DNA of 64,000 nucleotides from Woeseiaceae bacterium. Lineage in GTDB: Bacteria; Pseudomonadota; Gammaproteobacteria; Steroidobacterales; Woeseiaceae. The notes under the pieces were generated by a model, which was given only the letters and a program-made list of their open reading frames with translations, did not search any database and was not told the origin of the DNA. The stretch is from the NCBI GenBank assembly GCA_030065985.1, contig JASJCM010000015.1, forward strand, positions 1-64,000. Direction: 5' to 3'. The position numbers and the translations under genes are program-made. Shown one piece after another: positions 49,519 through 59,353 of this stretch (positions are counted from its first letter, which is position 1; every line of letters starts with the position of its first letter).

Positions 49519-52500
49519 CTAGTTGGTTACGACTGTGAACCCTGACGGCGAAGCATTCACGATCTGGCCATCACTAAAGGTCACCGTGAGCAACGCAGAA
49601 CCGAAGTTGTAGACAACGTAGCTGGTCACGCCATTGTTGTCGAAAGCCAGCGCCGCCGGGTAGTCGGCCGTCAGCGCGCCTGTGCCGGTAATCATCTGAC
49701 CCAGCTCGCGGAACGTATGGATCCAGTGATAGGTGTGCGCCTTCGTCTCGCCAGCTTCGGGGATGTAGTCGGCCACGGTGTTGTAATCGGCGACAGCCGC
49801 ATCCGCGTCGGTCATCGCCCAGAGGTTCCACCACAGATCGCGCCACTGGTCGTCAATCAGCCCGGACGGCCTGCCGTTGGATGACTCGCTGAGGCCAACG
49901 GCAACGTAGTCAGCCATGTAGCCCGCGTACTGACCTACGTGCAGGATCAGCGGATTCGACGGCAACCCCTGGATGCCGAGGATATGCGCGTAGGCCCCGC
50001 TAAACCATGTTGCGAACGCGGAGCCGTCACCCCAGATTATCGACGTCGTGATCCTGTTGTAGCCGGCCGGAAAGTTGTCTTCATCAGCACCGACGTTGTT
50101 GTAGCCGTCGATATTGTTCCAGTACTGCCAATAAGCCGCCGCCGTTGACGCATGCAGGTACATGCCCTTCTCTACCAGGTCGTCCCTGCCCGTGATTAGC
50201 CCGTACAGGACAATAGCCCCATACGCGTTGGCAGCTTCCGACGTGGACTCATTGTTGTTGCCACGCACGAAATTGGCCGGGCCCGAGGCCCAGGAGAAAC
50301 CGTTGGCGGGATCGAAATTCCTGAGGTACGGGAACAGCGGATCGTCCGCATCGCCGGCATAGTCCCGTATCAGCAGCTCGACCATCGGACCGTATTGCTC
50401 CGCACCGCACCACGAAACATCCATGCGGCAGATCTCAGCAGCGGCGCGCACGAAGTAGCCGTAATGGAAATGGTGGTCATTGAGTTGCTGGTGGGCAGCG
50501 AACGATTCCTCGAGGCCAAGTAACGTATTCCAATCGTCGTCGTACACGAAGTACTTGAAGACATCGAGTCGGCCGTTGGTCTCTGCCGTGAACCAGTCTT
50601 CGAGCTCCGCCTTCAGCCAGTCGAGCAACTGCCCTGCCTCGGCGTCCATGCCAATCGCATCGGCGATCGCGATGAGCTCAGCGACCTTGCCGTAGTTCTT
50701 CCCGGCCCAGTACGTGTCCGTGCGGTCGTTCCAGACACCGGGGCCTTGCGCGACAAACTGGCTCACCAGGCTCGAAAGAATTACCGGGTCGAACGACCCA
50801 TCGATCGTCGGCAGGGCCGGCAGTACTCCCACAGACGGCAGCAGGTACGAGAAAGTCGCGGTCTCGCTGAACTTGATGATGCCGCGGGCGCTTCTGACCT
50901 GGTAGCCCGATGTCGCCTGGGCGCTGTGCTTCCAGTGCAAGGGGTGCATGCCAACGATCGTCTCGACCGGCGCTCCTCCGCTGTCGCGATAGGTATGACT
51001 GACCGTGACATTGTTCGTGGCGCGATCGACGGAGTAGTCGATGTCGACAGAGGCAACGAGGTTGCGCGCCCTGGCCTCGAAGAAGGACGTCAACGTATCC
51101 GGTGGTGTGCCCGAAGTCTGCGGTAGCCAGGTTAGCGTGAACGCATTCGTCGCATTGCTGACCGAAATCTCGTTACCTGCCACGTTGCCGAACGCCGTCG
51201 TCCCCTCGCCCGTAACGAGGAAATTGTTGTGGTTGCCGGCAACGCTGGTCCAGATACCCAGGCTGTTACCCTGCTCGTAGAACGTCCCCTTCTCCCCGCC
51301 GTCCGTGCGCAGCGTCCGAACAACGGCTTCACCCTGGTAGACCTGTATGTAGGCATATGGCGAGCCATGCACGAACGTCGCTTCCATGACGGCGGCACCG
51401 CTGCTTTGCCATTCGACCGTGACTGACCCATCGCTGTGGTCCTTCAGGTAAGCATCCATGTTGGCGAAGCTGGTGTTGCCAATCGCGATGCCATCGAACA
51501 CTTCGTTGAACGGATCAGGTATCGGGTAGCTGAACCCATTGCCGATGGTTGCGAGTCCCGACGGAATGCCCATGACCCGGAACCCCTTGTTCGTCACGCG
51601 GGCCGTCATCGGGTCCGGTGTGATGTACGCGGCGTCGTTAGCATCGCCAATCGTCATCTCACCGAGGAACGGAATCGAACCCCACCACTTGTGCGTGGGT
51701 GTCGGCATAGTCGCCGCGGGACCGGTCAGTTGCGGAAACAGCGGCGTCGGCGACCCGCTCGGGATCCCGGTCGACGCATTGCAGCCGGGGATACCAGGCT
51801 GTACGACCCCCGCGTTGTAGATCCAGTTGCCGAAATCGACGACGCAGCGGTAGCTGGACGGATTAATCGTGTCGGAGATCGTGCCTGCGCCGAAGGACGT
51901 GATCGTGTAACCGGTCGTGGGCGGCGGGGCGTTGTCGTCGAAGCCCGTAAAGCGGACGTTGTCGATCCGGAAAACCGTGCTGGTCGCACTTGATGCCCAG
52001 ATGACGATCCCTGTGTTTACTGTCGCGAGATCCAGGCCGCCTGCCTGCAACGTCGCGAACGACACTTCAACCGTTTCCCAGCCCGTTGCACCTTTACTGC
52101 CGAGATTCTGATCACCGGACGTGCACGGGTAGAAGCAGTCGAGCTTCATCGTGATATTGCTGTCGCCGCTAACGACTCTCACATCGAAGACCACGCTGCC
52201 GTTGGCGAAACCGGACGCATCGACCGGCAGGTTTGCCGCAATGAACACCCCTGCGAGATTACCCGCAGACGTGTGCGTGACTTCCAGGACGTCGCCGCGC
52301 AAGCTATCGGACACGATCTCCCAGCCGATGCTTGGGCAAGCGGCGCCGCCGTCGTTGTTGCATTCGGCAAAGCCGATCGCTTCGTCGAACGCACTGATGC
52401 CCCTGTCCCATCGGGCACCTACGGCTCCGTTATCGAACACGATGATGTCTGTTGGATCGGCGCCTGGTGGCGGCGCCTCGACAGTTACCGTTCGCGACAC

Positions 52501-53040
52501 CGTCGACGTATTGCCCGCCGCATCCGTCGCCGAGTACGTCAGCACGTAGGTGCCGACGTCTGCGCCCACCGCGCCCGTCGTCGTGACGGGCACCGTGCCA
52601 TCGACGGTATCGGTCGCGGAGACGCCCGGGTCAGTAAACGGAGTGCCATGCATGATGGTCATCGAGGCATCACCGGCCATGATGATTACCGGCGCAATGG
52701 TGTCGGCGACGACGACCGTTCTCGTAGCCGTCGCCGAATTTCCGGCGCTGTCCGTCGCGGTGTAGGTAAGCGTATATGTGCCGGCCGAGGTGCCAACGGT
52801 TCCCGAGGTCGTCACCGCAACCGTGCCGTCAACAGCGTCCGTCGCCGTCGCGCCCTGATCGGTATAGGTTGTACCCTGCTCGTGGTTAAGGGTCGTCGGG
52901 CCGTTCACGGTAATGACCGGCGCTGTTCGATCCACGGGAGGTGGGGGTGTGGTCTCGCCGCCTCCTCCACCGCCGCCACAACCGGTCAGCAAGATGGCAA
53001 TCGCGCCAAATGACGCTATCACTAGAGTGAGTTTTCGCAA
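49519..53040 (-). CDS. GH81 endo-1,3-beta-glucanase lipoprotein with Ig-like and carbohydrate-binding regions
   Basis: A 1173-residue secreted lipoprotein (lipobox ILLTGC, followed by polyglycine). Residues about 38-190 are two bacterial Ig/HYR-type repeats (AYTATDSAGNSATATRTV-like ends), followed by a jelly-roll-like module, about 195-370, resembling carbohydrate-binding domains (TVFRIDNVRFTGF). The GH81 core spans about 400-1140, with LNDHHFHYGYFVRAAAEICR and the catalytic-acid region NNNESTSEAANAYGAIVLYG. It likely cleaves laminarin. The start is TTG at 53040 with GAGGT 8 bases upstream. The final about 30 residues form a short beta end. Confidence 0.92.
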   Translation of the reverse strand: MRKLTLVIASFGAIAILLTGCGGGGGGGETTPPPPVDRTAPVITVNGPTTLNHEQGTTYTDQGATATDAVDGTVAVTTSGTVGTSAGTYTLTYTATDSAGNSATATRTVVVADTIAPVIIMAGDASMTIMHGTPFTDPGVSATDTVDGTVPVTTTGAVGADVGTYVLTYSATDAAGNTSTVSRTVTVEAPPPGADPTDIIVFDNGAVGARWDRGISAFDEAIGFAECNNDGGAACPSIGWEIVSDSLRGDVLEVTHTSAGNLAGVFIAANLPVDASGFANGSVVFDVRVVSGDSNITMKLDCFYPCTSGDQNLGSKGATGWETVEVSFATLQAGGLDLATVNTGIVIWASSATSTVFRIDNVRFTGFDDNAPPPTTGYTITSFGAGTISDTINPSSYRCVVDFGNWIYNAGVVQPGIPGCNASTGIPSGSPTPLFPQLTGPAATMPTPTHKWWGSIPFLGEMTIGDANDAAYITPDPMTARVTNKGFRVMGIPSGLATIGNGFSYPIPDPFNEVFDGIAIGNTSFANMDAYLKDHSDGSVTVEWQSSGAAVMEATFVHGSPYAYIQVYQGEAVVRTLRTDGGEKGTFYEQGNSLGIWTSVAGNHNNFLVTGEGTTAFGNVAGNEISVSNATNAFTLTWLPQTSGTPPDTLTSFFEARARNLVASVDIDYSVDRATNNVTVSHTYRDSGGAPVETIVGMHPLHWKHSAQATSGYQVRSARGIIKFSETATFSYLLPSVGVLPALPTIDGSFDPVILSSLVSQFVAQGPGVWNDRTDTYWAGKNYGKVAELIAIADAIGMDAEAGQLLDWLKAELEDWFTAETNGRLDVFKYFVYDDDWNTLLGLEESFAAHQQLNDHHFHYGYFVRAAAEICRMDVSWCGAEQYGPMVELLIRDYAGDADDPLFPYLRNFDPANGFSWASGPANFVRGNNNESTSEAANAYGAIVLYGLITGRDDLVEKGMYLHASTAAAYWQYWNNIDGYNNVGADEDNFPAGYNRITTSIIWGDGSAFATWFSGAYAHILGIQGLPSNPLILHVGQYAGYMADYVAVGLSESSNGRPSGLIDDQWRDLWWNLWAMTDADAAVADYNTVADYIPEAGETKAHTYHWIHTFRELGQMITGTGALTADYPAALAFDNNGVTSYVVYNFGSALLTVTFSDGQIVNASPSGFTVVTN

Positions 53041-53194: not shown

Positions 53195-54166
53195 CTACGT
53201 GCCTTCGTCGGCCTTTGACCTGCCCGGCAGCATGCGCCGGACGAGGGTCTCTACTCCAACTATGATGCCGCCGGCGATCACGCCGAACACGCCGTTGTAA
53301 GCGATGGCGACGAGTACCCCGAGCATTCCGCCGATGCCCGCCACGCCGTGCACTAGCTCCTCCAGGTAATGGAGCGCGTCGGCGGCCGGTGCAATACCGT
53401 GAACGAGTATCCCGCCACCAACGAGGAACATCGCCGCGGTGCCCAGAACTGACAGCGTCTTCATCAGTTTCGGCGCTAGTCGAAGAATAAACCGCCCAAG
53501 TGCCTGCTTGGCTCTGCTGGCCTGCTCCAGGAGATGAAGGCCAGCGTCGTCGAGCTTGACGATTCCGGCAACCAGGCCATACACGCCGATCGTGATAAGT
53601 ACCGCAATCGACGTCAGGACGACGATCTGCGTGCCAATGGTCGAGTCCTGCACTGTACCCAGCGCGATCACGATGATCTCGGCTGACAGGATCGCGTCGG
53701 TCCGGATCGCGCCCTTGATGCGCTGCTTCTCAAACTCGACCATGTCGACTTCGGGATCCATCACAGCTTCCAGCCGCCCTACGTGTTCTGCCTCGTCTTC
53801 TTCCTTCGTGTGAAGCAGCTTGTGCGCGACCTTTTCGAATCCTTCGTAACAAAGGAACGCACCGCCCAGCATCAGAAGCGGCGTGATGATCCAAGGCACG
53901 AATACACTTAGTAACAGCGCGACCGGAACAAGAATGCTCTTGTTGATCGCCGATCCCTTGAACACCGCCCAGACGACCGGCAATTCACGTTCGGCCCGCA
54001 CACCCGAGACCTGCTCGGCATTCAACGCAAGATCGTCGCCGAGCACGCCCGCCGTCTTCTTCGCCGCGAACGCCGTCTTCTTTGCGGCTACGCTTGTCAT
54101 CGCCGAGACGTCATCAAGCAACGTGGCGATATCGTCAATCAGTGTAAGCAGGCTGCTTCCGGACAA
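53195..54166 (-). CDS. DUF808 (YedI-like) membrane protein
   Basis: A 323-residue inner-membrane protein of the DUF808/YedI family. The N-terminal [31 protein letters not shown] and [16 protein letters not shown] are hallmarks, followed by [27 protein letters not shown], several predicted helices ([22 protein letters not shown]) and a final [24 protein letters not shown]. No function is known for the family. It stands alone between the surface protein gene and the GH81 gene, both on the same strand. Confidence 0.92.
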
Positions 54167-54238: not shown

Positions 54239-57200
54239 CTAGAAATCAGCGGCAAATCGCCACCCGATGTTGAAGCTGGCGAAGCTCGCATCGCGAGAAT
54301 AGTATTCGTACTCGAAGGAGTAGAACCAGCGGCGTGTCACGTTCCATTCCGAGGTGATGCCAACGGCTGCCTGTGCCGAACTCTGCTGGTCGAAGCGAAC
54401 CCTGTCGTCGTTGGACTCATTCCTGATTTTCGCAACGCCGAGCTTCACGTGGACCTTCCACGGATCATCTGACTGCCTGAGATTGAAGCCGACGAACGCC
54501 GCAGGTATCTGGTAGCGGATCGCCGCGACGTCGGTAATTCCCGGATTCCGATTGCCAATTTCGGCTTCACCCGCATCGACATAGCTGACCTCTGCGAACC
54601 ACCTTGGCGAGAAACGATACCCTACCCGCAATTTATAGCCGTCGCTGGTGTCGCCCACGGTGTGCCAGCCGTTTGAATACCCCTCGGGCGCAACGAACGA
54701 CTTGCCAAAGCCTGCACTGAAGTGAGCCAGGGTTTCATCGCCCCAATCCTCGTCGGCCTTGGCCTCAGCCACCGGAAGCAAAACAACGACTGCCATCAGC
54801 GGAAGTACCGTTCGCGCCGCCCGACGGCATCGGGATGCTATCGCGAACCCGAGCAGGATCGCGGGTAGCCACAATACCGCGCCGCCGCCGGTGACGGCCG
54901 TCTGCAACGGTCCGTCAACCTGGAGGCTGTCAGGAATGCCGTCACCGTTGAAGTCTCCGTTCTCGTCCACGTCCAGTATCCCGTCGCTATCGCTGTCAAA
55001 GTCGATCTGGTCCGTCGAGCCGTCGCCATCCGTATCGGGCGGCACTATCGGGGTACCTGCCGCTCCGCCGGACGGCACAACAGGATCGACGATATCGACA
55101 AGGCCGTCGCCATCAGCATCGACGAGACTGTCCAGGACGCCATCGCCATTTGCATCGATCGTATCGACCACGTCGCGCGCGCTCTCGATGATGTCATTCA
55201 TGCCATCACCATCGCTGTCGATATCGCGGAAGTCGGCCGTCCCGTCACCGTCGGTATCGAGAGGCACCATGCTTGTTGCCACCTGGTCGGCGAGACCATC
55301 GGCATCGGAATCGAGCAGGTCATCGAGTAGGCCATCGCGATCACTATCCAGGCTGTTGTCGCCGACGGCCTCGACACTGTCAGGCAGACCATCGTTGTCG
55401 GAATCCAGGTCAAGACGGTCAACAATGCCGTCCATGTCGGTATCAACATCGATCCCGTTGACCATTTCCTGGTCGTCGGGAATGCCATCGCTATCGTCGT
55501 CGAGGTCGATCGGGTCGAACACACCATCGTTATCGAAGTCCCGACCGACGCCGTGTCCGGTATTGTCGCCGTCGACGACGTCCGGGACGCCGTCACCGTC
55601 CACGTCGGCCGCGCTGACCGGGTCTATCTGGCCATCTCCGTCCCCGTCGTACGCCGATGCTCGGGAAGAGACAATGTCGTCGGTTCCGTCGCCATCGCTA
55701 TCCAGATCAATGAAGTCCGGGCCGTCCGTACCATCGGAGTTCGGCGGTGTATCGGTTATTGCGCCGTCATCGACGATACCGTCCTCATTCGCATCGGTGA
55801 GGCCGCCTTCGCTGACGTCCAGACGCCCGTCGTTATCACTGTCGAGGTCGAGATAGTTGGGAACGCCGTCGTTATCGAAGTCGGCCGCGACGACTGCGTC
55901 GTCCACGCCGTCCCCGTTCAGGTCGGTGCCACCTGTCTGATCGACGTCATAGGTGTCGTCGATGCCATCGTTATCGACATCGTTGCCACTCGTCTGTCCT
56001 TCGGCGAGATCGGAGATGCCGTCGTTGTCGCTGTCCGGATCGAGGTGGTCGGGAACGCCGTCGCCGTCAGTGTCGATCAGCGGCAAGCCGTTTGACTCGA
56101 CGGAGTCCGGGATGCCGTCATTGTCGCTATCCGGATCGATATAGTCGTCGATTCCATCGCCATCGCTGTCAAAGTTCTCCAGCGCATCCGGAATAGCGTC
56201 ATTGTCGCTGTCCAGGTCGCGGTAGTCCGGCGTGCCGTCAGCGTCGCTGTCAACGGCACCTTCGGTGGCATCTGCAATGCCGTCGCCATCGGTGTCGTCA
56301 TCGACATAGTCCGGTATGCCATCGGCGTCCTGGTCTGACGGGGCCAATGCGTCGTCCACGCCGTCACCGTTTGCGTCCACACCACCGGTCTGATCAACAT
56401 CTATTGCGTTGTCGATGCCGTCCCCATCGGTGTCGATGCCGCTCAGCGGCGGGATGTTCTGTTCCTCATCAAGATCGGGGATGCCGTCGTTGTCAGAGTC
56501 CGTGTCCATGAAATCCGGAGTGCCGTCACCGTCGGTATCACCGGCACCCTCGACCGCATCGGGTATGCCATCGTTGTCGAAATCGAGATCGACCGTGAAG
56601 TTGACATTGACGGTCTGGACGTTGCCGGCTACATCGGTGATGTCTGCCGTATAAACGTAAACACCCTCCGGAATTGAGCTCGGGGAAGTACAACTCCAGG
56701 TGTTTGTGGGCGTCGCCGAAATCACCGTAGCCGTGCAGACGACCGCACCCAGACCATCGCGAATCGTCACCGTGTTGCCCGCGTTCGCGTCGGTAGTGCC
56801 ACTGAAGGTCGGGAACGTATTATTCGTGACGCCGATAGTATCGACTGTCAGAACAGGTGGGGTGGTGTCGAGGGTAAAGACATCGCCCGCTGGTACAGCC
56901 GAATTACCAACCGCATCGCTGACATCCGCGGAGATCGTGATCGTGCCGTCATTAAGACTGGAAATGTCTGCGGCGGAGGCAGTCCAGGTGCCGCTCGTCA
57001 CAGTGGCTCCGGCGACAACATCGGCGCTGGCGCCGTCGCTAAACGTAACGGTCACGGCCCGGCCATCGATAACGTCGCTCGTTCCCGCGACGACGACCGC
57101 GGTTGCTTCCAGCGCACTGACAAGCTCGTCACCGCCACTGCCGTCATTGGTAATCGCTATTGTTGGGCGGGTCGCGTCCTTGTCGGAAAGCTGGCTGGTG

Positions 57201-59353
57201 TTGCCGGTATTGCCAGCGGCGTCAGTCTGGACTGCATCGATCTGTAGTACATCGTCACCGTCCGCAATCGCACTGACGTCGAAGCTCGCGGTCCACGTAC
57301 CCGTCAGGCAGCTCGTCGTTCGAGAGGCCGGCGAGGCGCCGAGGATACTGGCCGTGACATTGCCGGCTCCGGCTTCGCAGTTGCCGCCGATCGCGTAGCT
57401 CGTTTCATTGTTTGATGTCGCCACCGGCGCGCTTGTAATGCTCACTACCGGATCGGTCGTGTCGATCGTTACTTCGTCGAGGCTGGCGTCGATCGCGCTA
57501 TTGCCCGCGGCATCGGTGCTCAGCACCGTCACATCATTGCTGCCGTTCAGGTCAGGCGAAAATGTGCCGCTGTCCGGCGCCACGGTACCGGTGTCCAGCG
57601 ACCACTGGCCAAAGCCGTCGGTAGCGACAGTGAAGGTCGCGCCACCAAAGGTAATCGTATTGGTTGTACCGACCTCCGCCGTACCCGTCACGGTCGGCGT
57701 CGGGTCGTTCGTCAGCATGGAAGCCACTGTTGGCGCTGCCGGCGCAACCGTGTCGATGACCAACTCGTTGTCAGTAGTGTCAGTGCTGCTGTTACCGGCG
57801 ACGTCGGTGACGGTCGCTGTGACCGAGTTTGCGCCATTGGTATTAGGGCTGAAGACTCCACTGTCCGGCGTTGCAAGACCCGTATCCAGCGACCATTGGC
57901 CAGACCCGTTTGCTGAAACCGTATACGTAGCGCCACCGACTGTAACCGAGACAGCGGCGCCGGCATCGGCGGTGCCCGTAATGACTGGCGTTGTATCACT
58001 TGTTGTCAACGCATCGACGGTTGGCGTGCCTGGGGGTGTCGAGTCCTTGTCCAGCCATACCGTTGCAGCATTACCGGTGTTGCCGAATGCGTCTGTCTGC
58101 GTCGCGTTCACGACGACCGCACTGCTGCCGTCGGCAATGCCGGAAAGATCGAACGCGCTGGAGATCCAGGTGCCTCCCGAGCAGGGTGCAGTCATGGAAG
58201 GTGGCGATGCGCCCGCCACCGACACGGTGACGTCGCCGTCTCCGTTCGTACAAGTGCCGTGAAACGAGAAGCTGGCCTCGTTAGCCGCATTGACTATTCC
58301 CGTCGTCGAAATCGACAGAAACGGTGGCGTTGCGTCGATGTACAGTTCGTTGCCGCTCACGTCGTTCGTGGTGTTGCCCGCAGCATCGGCACTGGTCGCA
58401 ATGACTTCATTCACCGTGGTGCCGTCAATGTTCGGATTAAACGTTCCGCTTTCCGGCACAACAATTCCGGTATCCAGGGACCAGGTGCCATCGGACGCCG
58501 CAACGACTTCAAAGGTGGCCCCGCCCACCACAACTGTCATCGTGGAAAACGCCTCTGCAGTTCCAGTAAGCGTCGGTGTCGCATCATTGGTGGCAAGAAG
58601 CGCGATCGTTGGCGCGACAGGTGAAAACATGTCCTGCTTATTCTCGCCGGGCGTCGTGAAATAGCTGTCCGCGTTGCCGTCGAAGGAGAACTGTCGTCCC
58701 GACGCACCGTTAGCCGTCTCGAATACCAGCCGTATGGTTGGCAATGGCTGGAAATCAAACTCTATCGAGATGTTGGTGTCCCCCGGATTGCCGTCGGCGC
58801 CAGAGGTCACCTCGAACTCGTCGTCCGAAGAATCACCTGGTGTACCGTTGTCGAGGGTTGTGACGGTCAGGTCGGATCCCGGGCCGCTGGCCTCGACCGT
58901 GTAATTCGCGATTTGCGATGTCAGCACGCGAACAATTTCCAGCGTTGATGTTCCTGAAACGTCCGAGTCGAGATCCTGTATCAGGGCTTCCGGAATAATC
59001 GTTATTGGCGTGCTCGTGCCCGCCTCGAAAAAGTTGTAATCAAGTTCGACGATTTGGCCGGAGGCCCCATCCAGCCAGACTGCGGCGTCATCGCCGTCCG
59101 TCGTGAATTGCATGCTGTCGCCGCCGCGATTGTTGCTGATAACCTCGATGACGAGGTCAATATCGGTGCCGTTCAGTGTGCCAACGTTGCTCCAGCGAGC
59201 GGTTGTGCCGATAGAGCCGGTGTCGACGCCGTTCCCATCGACGATTACCGGCGAGCCCGAGAAGCTCAGATCCGTTTCAGCGTGTGCGACCGCCTGGAGC
59301 AGCAGCAGTACTGCGGCGATTGCACCCAAGCGGGCGCCATTCACGTTGTTCAC
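54239..59353 (-). CDS. Giant surface protein: Ig-like repeats, TSP3 calcium repeats, GlyGly-CTERM-like segment and outer-membrane barrel
   Basis: A 1704-residue exported protein. A signal peptide (residues 1-25, [11 protein letters not shown]) is followed by a beta region with GEN/choice-of-anchor character, then about 240-920 as Ig-like repeats with the recurring end DAAGN, and about 921-1485 as thrombospondin type 3 repeats ([15 protein letters not shown]) that bind calcium. At 1488-1511, [24 protein letters not shown] has the look of a GlyGly-CTERM sorting tail. A second hydrophobic, signal-like stretch ends VAEAKA at 1533, and residues 1534-1704 look like an OmpA/OmpW-sized barrel ending in F. 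The start is GTG at 59353 with GGAG upstream. Confidence 0.85.
54905..56595 (-). repeat. Thrombospondin type 3 repeat-coding region
   Basis: The DNA consists of irregular repeats encoding DxDxDGxxD units (residues about 921-1485 of the 1704-residue protein). The repeat is at protein level with variable spacing of 15-40 residues; it gives long spurious open frames on the plus strand. Confidence 0.88.

Follow-up and report, generated by a model that had tools for sequence, protein, structure and literature searches.

The stretch of DNA analysed here, called the window, comprises 64,000 nucleotides of the draft genome of Woeseiaceae bacterium GCA_030065985.1 (contig JASJCM010000015.1, positions 1–64,000 of the forward strand; the assembly amounts to 2.77 Mb in 86 contigs and is 84% complete). 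On its minus strand, a single reading frame of 1704 amino acids (aa) carries immunoglobulin-like (Ig-like) and TSP3-type repeats, followed by two hydrophobic stretches and a small outer-membrane barrel. This is a real, conserved two-in-one envelope protein. Judging from the sequence, its gene probably encodes a polyprotein that would be cut by rhombosortase at a GG-containing segment and by signal peptidase I after the second hydrophobic stretch. The features, in window coordinates, are as follows:

54239–59353, minus: whole gene of the proposed polyprotein, single frame of 1704 aa with a GTG start
59279–59353, minus: N-terminal signal peptide, residues 1–25, ending in AVAHA; hydrophobic maximum of 2.47 at residues 4–26, cleavage point placed by inspection
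56579–58603, minus: Ig-like repeat region, approximately residues 251–925; Pfam Big_13 and NCBIfam Ca_tandemer, borders approximate
54908–56590, minus: TSP3-type Asp-rich repeats, approximately residues 922–1482; DxDxD(G/N/A) motifs
54833–54889, minus: GGG and first membrane stretch, residues 1489–1507, GlyGly-CTERM-like by hydrophobicity and sequence, with no match to the TIGR03501 model
54812–54832, minus: basic loop RCRRAAR, residues 1508–1514, predicted to be cytoplasmic; net positive charge also in all 59 fused junctions described below
54755–54811, minus: internal signal-peptide-like stretch, residues 1515–1533, by hydrophobicity; both A of A-x-A invariant in a nine-sequence alignment
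54242–54754, minus: outer-membrane barrel of 171 residues (1534–1704) with a C-terminal F; Pfam OMP_b-brl

The Ig-like region was recognised by Big_13 (102.5 bits, five stretches) and Ca_tandemer (148.8 bits, seven stretches), and residues 926–1485 contain 28 DxDxD(G/N/A) motifs. GGG occupies residues 1489–1491, with no Cys ahead of the first hydrophobic stretch, and the second hydrophobic stretch (residues 1511–1533) ends in AEAKA. The first stretch, the second stretch and the signal peptide, with 15-residue hydrophobicity maxima of 2.37, 2.52 and 2.47, are the three strongest hydrophobic places of the protein; three further places peak at just 1.67–1.70. An earlier note on this DNA had described a tail, a second hydrophobic stretch ending in VAEAKA and a 171-residue barrel ending in F, and this order was borne out within the one frame. 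The GG motif, the hydrophobic stretch and the basic cluster of a GlyGly-CTERM sorting tail are all present. They sit mid-chain rather than at the extreme C-terminus, with the second hydrophobic stretch and 171 residues after them.

When the C-terminal part was scanned alone (window 54242–54781), the barrel matched OMP_b-brl (PF13505) with 41.3 bits, over the cut-off of 28.7; the family was not listed when the full-length protein was scanned against Pfam. The Pfam scan of the C-terminal part found no PF00691 domain (the OmpA cell-wall domain). Neither phmmer with the window barrel nor a search with the type-A profile introduced below matched a solved structure.

Fused frames, split pairs and barrel lineages

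Relatives share the complete junction, in frame, and for this reason we regard it as more than chance. The collection holds 59 fused frames of the same plan from 52 gammaproteobacterial genomes with 19 family codes (loci and genomes bear L and G handles below): 25 came from the first sets and 34 from 40 further regions, of which 32 contained a fused frame, six a split pair of adjacent genes and two neither. The fused and split counts describe this collection and not prevalence, the regions having been chosen for long frames and for frames with internal stops. Several fused frames are cut by contig ends, L026 and L027 inside the barrel.

The junction detector requires a hydrophobic stretch, a basic loop and a hydrophobic stretch, and none of the 59 frames failed it; the loop is net positive in every case. 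Outside the detector's definition, the loop lacks D and E in 56 of 59 junctions, and in 53 a G pair lies at most 9 residues from the first membrane core, whereas random 12-mers drawn from these proteins give 15.9 on average and 25 at most. After the second stretch, 42 of 59 have a strict A-x-A (2000 shuffles: mean 28.9, maximum 40); a small-x-A with D/E/Q/N/A/K as the next residue is found in 53, versus 33.3 on average and at most 44 in shuffles. The part preceding the invariant A residues is variable in the nine-sequence alignment. Elsewhere in the passenger, a pattern of two transmembrane stretches separated by K/R appears in just 3 of the 59. Of 18 ordinary GG-tail frames found in these genomes, 17 end 5–14 residues past the membrane stretch, the exception (L123, a sub-cut-off match) extending for 30 residues.

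The window comes from an incomplete draft, and a stop codon lost through faulty assembly or sequencing might be suspected. Against such an error stand the same plan in 58 further frames from 51 further genomes and the constraint on junction codons in several close pairs (nonsynonymous/synonymous divergence, dN/dS, of 0.063/1.17, 0/0.27, 0.221/1.04 and 0.213/0.92). The constraint is weaker in two pairs (0.181/0.300 and 0.173/0.407), and distant pairs, window versus L022 among them (0.703/1.66), are near saturation. Recurrence in relatives and codon constraint in effect refute the error, whose probability we consider negligible.

It is also very improbable, in our view, that the barrel arises from an internal start codon as an overlapping gene and not as part of a cut chain. 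An ATG, GTG or TTG does lie between the membrane stretches in 45 of 59 junctions (ATG in 19), which counts for an internal start and against cutting. Fourteen junctions, however, contain none of the three codons, and just 3 of 59 have a candidate preceded by a Shine-Dalgarno-like 4-mer; nor would there be any reason to keep the frame open across all 59 junctions. There is no conserved internal start in the junctions.

Seven split pairs (L131, L202, L204, L209, L212, L213 and L214) carry the two halves as adjacent genes. In these pairs, the upstream gene ends with a GG-hydrophobic-basic tail and the barrel gene encodes a signal peptide of its own. In L131 (G065), the upstream tail is followed by TGA, GTG and the ATG of the barrel gene, with AAAGGAG ahead of the start. 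For the other six, in the order given, the upstream frame and the first base of the barrel open frame (not its start codon) are separated by 21, 21, 3, 66, 3 and −23 bases. The earlier note had suggested a fusion of two ancestral genes and a search of related genomes for separate tail and barrel genes; the seven pairs are what that search found, and they support the suggestion. Read from its sequence, the fused junction corresponds to the meeting of a split pair's gene end with the signal peptide of the next gene.

The chain might alternatively stay whole, a two-helix inner-membrane hairpin tying both parts together, and the conservation of the plan as a single unit in many genomes agrees with this. 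The split pairs, however, make a covalent link unnecessary, and the barrel, together with an OmpA domain in some relatives, belongs at the outer membrane and cell wall. We judge an uncut chain to be highly unlikely and favour cutting, because two inner-membrane helices still attached to the barrel would make its placement in the outer membrane hardly possible.

A tree was built from 76 barrels (57 fused, 7 split and 12 alone), leaving out the partial barrels of L026 and L027. The second barrel of L219, scored as alone, starts at the end of its contig and may be part of a fused frame; upstream of the standalone barrels of L232 and L233 lie other genes, and these barrels were scored neither joined nor split. 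Fused and split states alternate on the tree, which needs six changes; the split label takes 5–6 changes in bootstraps, and at least three are forced by strongly supported branches. Which state is older cannot be read from the tree because it is unrooted. A well supported branch separates type A and its class relatives from a second lineage, type B, which groups with 11 of the 12 standalone barrels.

The passengers of type B are different, with DUF11 domains occurring in L029 and L100 and HYDIN/VesB-like Ig domains in L104 and L106; its barrels are of the OmpA_membrane kind, and its profile matches solved OmpA chains. The type-A and type-B profiles align with 99.6% probability, the junction being covered. 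A query made of tail and barrel had matches in 14 of 60 genomes, the source genome included; 8 of the 13 others yielded frames of 1079 to 3106 aa, and the remainder were lone barrels or fragments. The type-A profile matched 61 of 396 genomes of the order at E 1e-6, barrel-only matches counted, and 37 of 369 genomes of the class at E 1e-15, both counts including the source genome. The type-B profile matched 150 of 396 order genomes at E 1e-12; among the matches listed, many frames are of about 200–400 aa, which leaves no room for a passenger. Two genomes had a match in a phylum sample of 190, the matches being the window itself and one barrel-only frame of 333 aa. A related-locus search of genome contigs returned one locus, in a Woeseiaceae metagenome-assembled genome (L061).

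The PF00691 domain is present in L023 and in the split pair L202. By eye, two OmpA-like domains with TSP3-like linkers also follow the barrel in L024 (G040 C20) and L025 (G051 C16), whose fused frames exceed 3000 aa. Two distinct fused frames, L210 (G404 C107) and L217 (G666 C5), lie close together on one strand of the same genome. At L109 (G015 C25) and L140 (G237 C1), a gene for a secreted protein stands directly upstream of a barrel and OmpA-like gene, an arrangement that is perhaps another pair of surface protein and barrel. By eye, we take the secreted protein to resemble ice-binding DUF3494 proteins; the L109 copy had no NCBIfam match.

The GG segment, rhombosortase and the predicted processing

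A single protein of the source genome exceeds the curated rhombosortase cut-off (147.1 bits versus 84), and two rhomboid-type matches are weaker (34.1 and 31.6 bits). The earlier note had held that the absence of a rhombosortase would weaken the idea of sorting; the gene is present, and it stands beside type II secretion genes, with GspG, GspH, GspK and GspL over their cut-offs nearby. No rhombosortase passed the cut-off in any of 14 control genomes. In G137, a draft genome of 92% completeness, the fusion gene is immediately followed, on its own strand, by the sole rhombosortase match (E 4.6e-30, 104.5 bits).

Within the order, a rhombosortase match (E 1e-15) was found in all 31 genomes with a collected fused frame versus 252 of 365 others (p 1.8e-5, a rough value, as the 365 include some genomes with long-frame matches outside the collection). 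Within the class, rhombosortase was over the cut-off in 24 of 25 carriers of a fused or split form versus 11 of 39 non-carriers, the latter being genomes G396 to G436 without a type-A profile match (p 3.1e-8). Both p-values are too small, because carriers are related to one another.

The TIGR03501 model of GlyGly-CTERM has a cut-off of 15.5 bits. At the default limit it found nothing in the source genome; since the model has just 22 positions, it was rerun at E 10, where it exceeded the cut-off in 1 of 14 control genomes. In the source genome, ordinary end-of-protein tails were then detected in frames of 693 and 220 aa (21.4 and 15.6 bits), and the GG segment of the window went unmatched in the genome searches. 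Short pieces covering nine internal GG segments were also scanned; three passed (L028 with 21.0, L026 with 20.3 and L103 with 19.2 bits) and three fell just below (L104 with 15.1, L101 with 14.9 and L029 with 14.3); G040 C20 passed in the genome search with 17.8 bits. The best short-model match of L028 was VPDSG_CTERM (23.3 bits, cut-off 22), from which it follows that such models discriminate poorly and do not settle the kind of tail. Of the earlier claim that residues 1488–1511 form a GlyGly-CTERM-style tail, the order GGG, hydrophobic stretch and RCRR held, and a TIGR03501 match was not obtained.

Besides the limits on the two rhombosortase comparisons, several results weigh against processing by both enzymes. 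TIGR03501 matched neither the full window protein nor its 37-residue piece at E up to 10, and it likewise missed the segments of L027 and L095 and the upstream tail in split pair L131; G040 C30 (14.8 bits), G012 (14.0) and G051 C16 (12.8) stayed below the cut-off in the genome search. A strict A-x-A is absent in 17 of 59 junctions and a close G pair in six. The split carrier G495, the sole exception in the class, has no rhombosortase match, and 252 order genomes have a rhombosortase and no fused frame in the collection. In addition, a structure model of the barrel from two sequences reached a mean pLDDT of only 29.7.

Some of these points would suit a chain cut by signal peptidase only, in which the barrel is released, the GG motif is a relic and the Ig/TSP3 part is kept in the inner membrane by its first stretch or is processed by a different rhomboid, for example GlpG. 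The failure of TIGR03501 on the window segment and the two weaker rhomboid-type matches beside the rhombosortase fit this explanation, as does the report of two rhomboids with a shared substrate in Vibrio cholerae (PMC11389362; here and below, papers are cited from the accessible portions of their text). Against it stand the G pair kept in 53 of 59 junctions, the internal segments that do pass TIGR03501 and the rhombosortase gene adjoining the fusion in G137. We regard it as unlikely, if the least so of the alternatives.

The proposed processing by two proteases builds on the observed order of the signals, its recurrence, the split pairs, the rhombosortase gene and the type II secretion genes. 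The N-terminal signal peptide would send the Ig/TSP3 part through Sec. Passage would halt at the GG-hydrophobic-basic segment, which would lodge in the inner membrane, its basic end predicted to face the cytoplasm. The second hydrophobic stretch would then act as an internal signal peptide of opposite orientation, delivering the barrel into the periplasm. A putative signal peptidase I cut after AKA would free the barrel for the barrel assembly machinery (BAM) and the outer membrane. After a rhombosortase cut at the GG segment, the type II secretion system would take over the Ig/TSP3 part, by then probably lipid-linked, and display it on the surface; the short remnant between both cuts would be lost. 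The outcome would be a surface adhesin-like protein and a barrel partner supplied one to one, as proposed for TraA/TraB in Myxococcus. The split-and-anchor design raised in the earlier note gains support from the rhombosortase gene, the signal-peptidase-like end of the junction and the occurrence of the same two signals apart in split genes, which make cleavage plausible.

Beyond this gene, we lean towards a design spread through numerous gammaproteobacterial families, in which a surface protein and a barrel are repeatedly joined or split. Where joined, the chain would carry a rhombosortase signal and, after it, a signal peptide, both internal, through which two different membrane proteases would send equal amounts of the partners to separate destinations. 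The joined genes could then serve as Rosetta stones that predict barrel partners of unjoined GG-tail proteins, and the joined and split forms would provide many natural replicates for asking whether sorting tails act inside a chain.

Directly downstream of the gene and on the same strand, the window encodes a DUF808 membrane protein (53195–54166, minus; 366 bits). A GH81 family beta-glucanase with surface Ig-like domains (Pfam) and, by eye, a lipoprotein-like start lies at 49519–53040, minus.

Comparison with known systems

Envelope polyproteins of bacteria that are cut by two proteases are, to our knowledge, rare. In one bacterial chain, the cytochrome b/c1 polyprotein (fbcH) of Bradyrhizobium, signal peptidase cuts at an export signal inside the chain; its products are inner-membrane respiratory proteins, and it has no sorting tail. 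Our literature search found no GlyGly-CTERM version of an internal-tag fusion within its reach, which excluded most subscription journals; it likewise returned no precedent for polyproteins with internal signals, fbcH included.

The barrel resembles OmpA-type small barrels through its OMP_b-brl match, as do type-B barrels through OmpA_membrane; it differs in being fused to a surface protein and in lacking the PF00691 domain. With GlyGly-CTERM substrates of rhombosortase such as VesB, the window protein shares GG, a hydrophobic stretch and a basic end, and its genome has both rhombosortase and type II secretion genes. In V. cholerae, the VesB tag is reported to reside in the inner membrane, where rhombosortase cleavage is followed by a modification consistent with glycerophosphoethanolamine and by export through the type II secretion system (PMC6219818), and the tag also steers unrelated proteins to rhombosortase (Roberts et al. 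2026, PMC13393428). Known GlyGly-CTERM tails are located at the extreme C-terminus (PMC3237569), whereas in the window protein a second export signal and an entire barrel follow.

TraA and TraB of Myxococcus, taken here as the model of function, reported to colocalise at 1:1 and encoded by genes that overlap by four bases (PMC3325183, PMC12045341), are likewise a surface protein with a sorting tail and a barrel encoded together, TraB carrying an OmpA domain; the comparison is one of design alone. They differ in being two genes and in using MYXO-CTERM rather than GlyGly, whereas the form in the window is fused and is split in seven pairs elsewhere.

The closest likeness is to MXAN_5598 of Myxococcus xanthus, which combines a large adhesin-like part, an internal MYXO-CTERM sorting tag and, after it, an outer-membrane beta-barrel and OmpA domains, and for which Guo, Haft and Wall (2025, PMC11980579) suggested a two-gene fusion with processing of the N-terminal part. 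The same paper likens it to TraA plus TraB and states, citing others, that tags can work mid-protein. Its tag has an invariant Cys and is cut by myxosortase, a glutamate-type protease, whereas the window protein has neither such a Cys nor OmpA domains. MXAN_5598 is the sole case named in the accessible text of PMC11980579 (which elsewhere says 'in rare cases'), and internal signal peptides or split forms are not discussed there beyond the likeness to TraA plus TraB. The polyprotein idea is not wholly new, since this Myxococcus protein with an internal MYXO-CTERM had already been described. Within the reach of our searches, the idea is in print for MYXO-CTERM only and is extended here to rhombosortase; the new elements are this version, how widely it is spread, the occurrence of split pairs and the export signal inside the chain. 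If our reading is correct, sorting tails named for the C-terminus would regularly function mid-chain, in line with what Guo et al. proposed for MXAN_5598.

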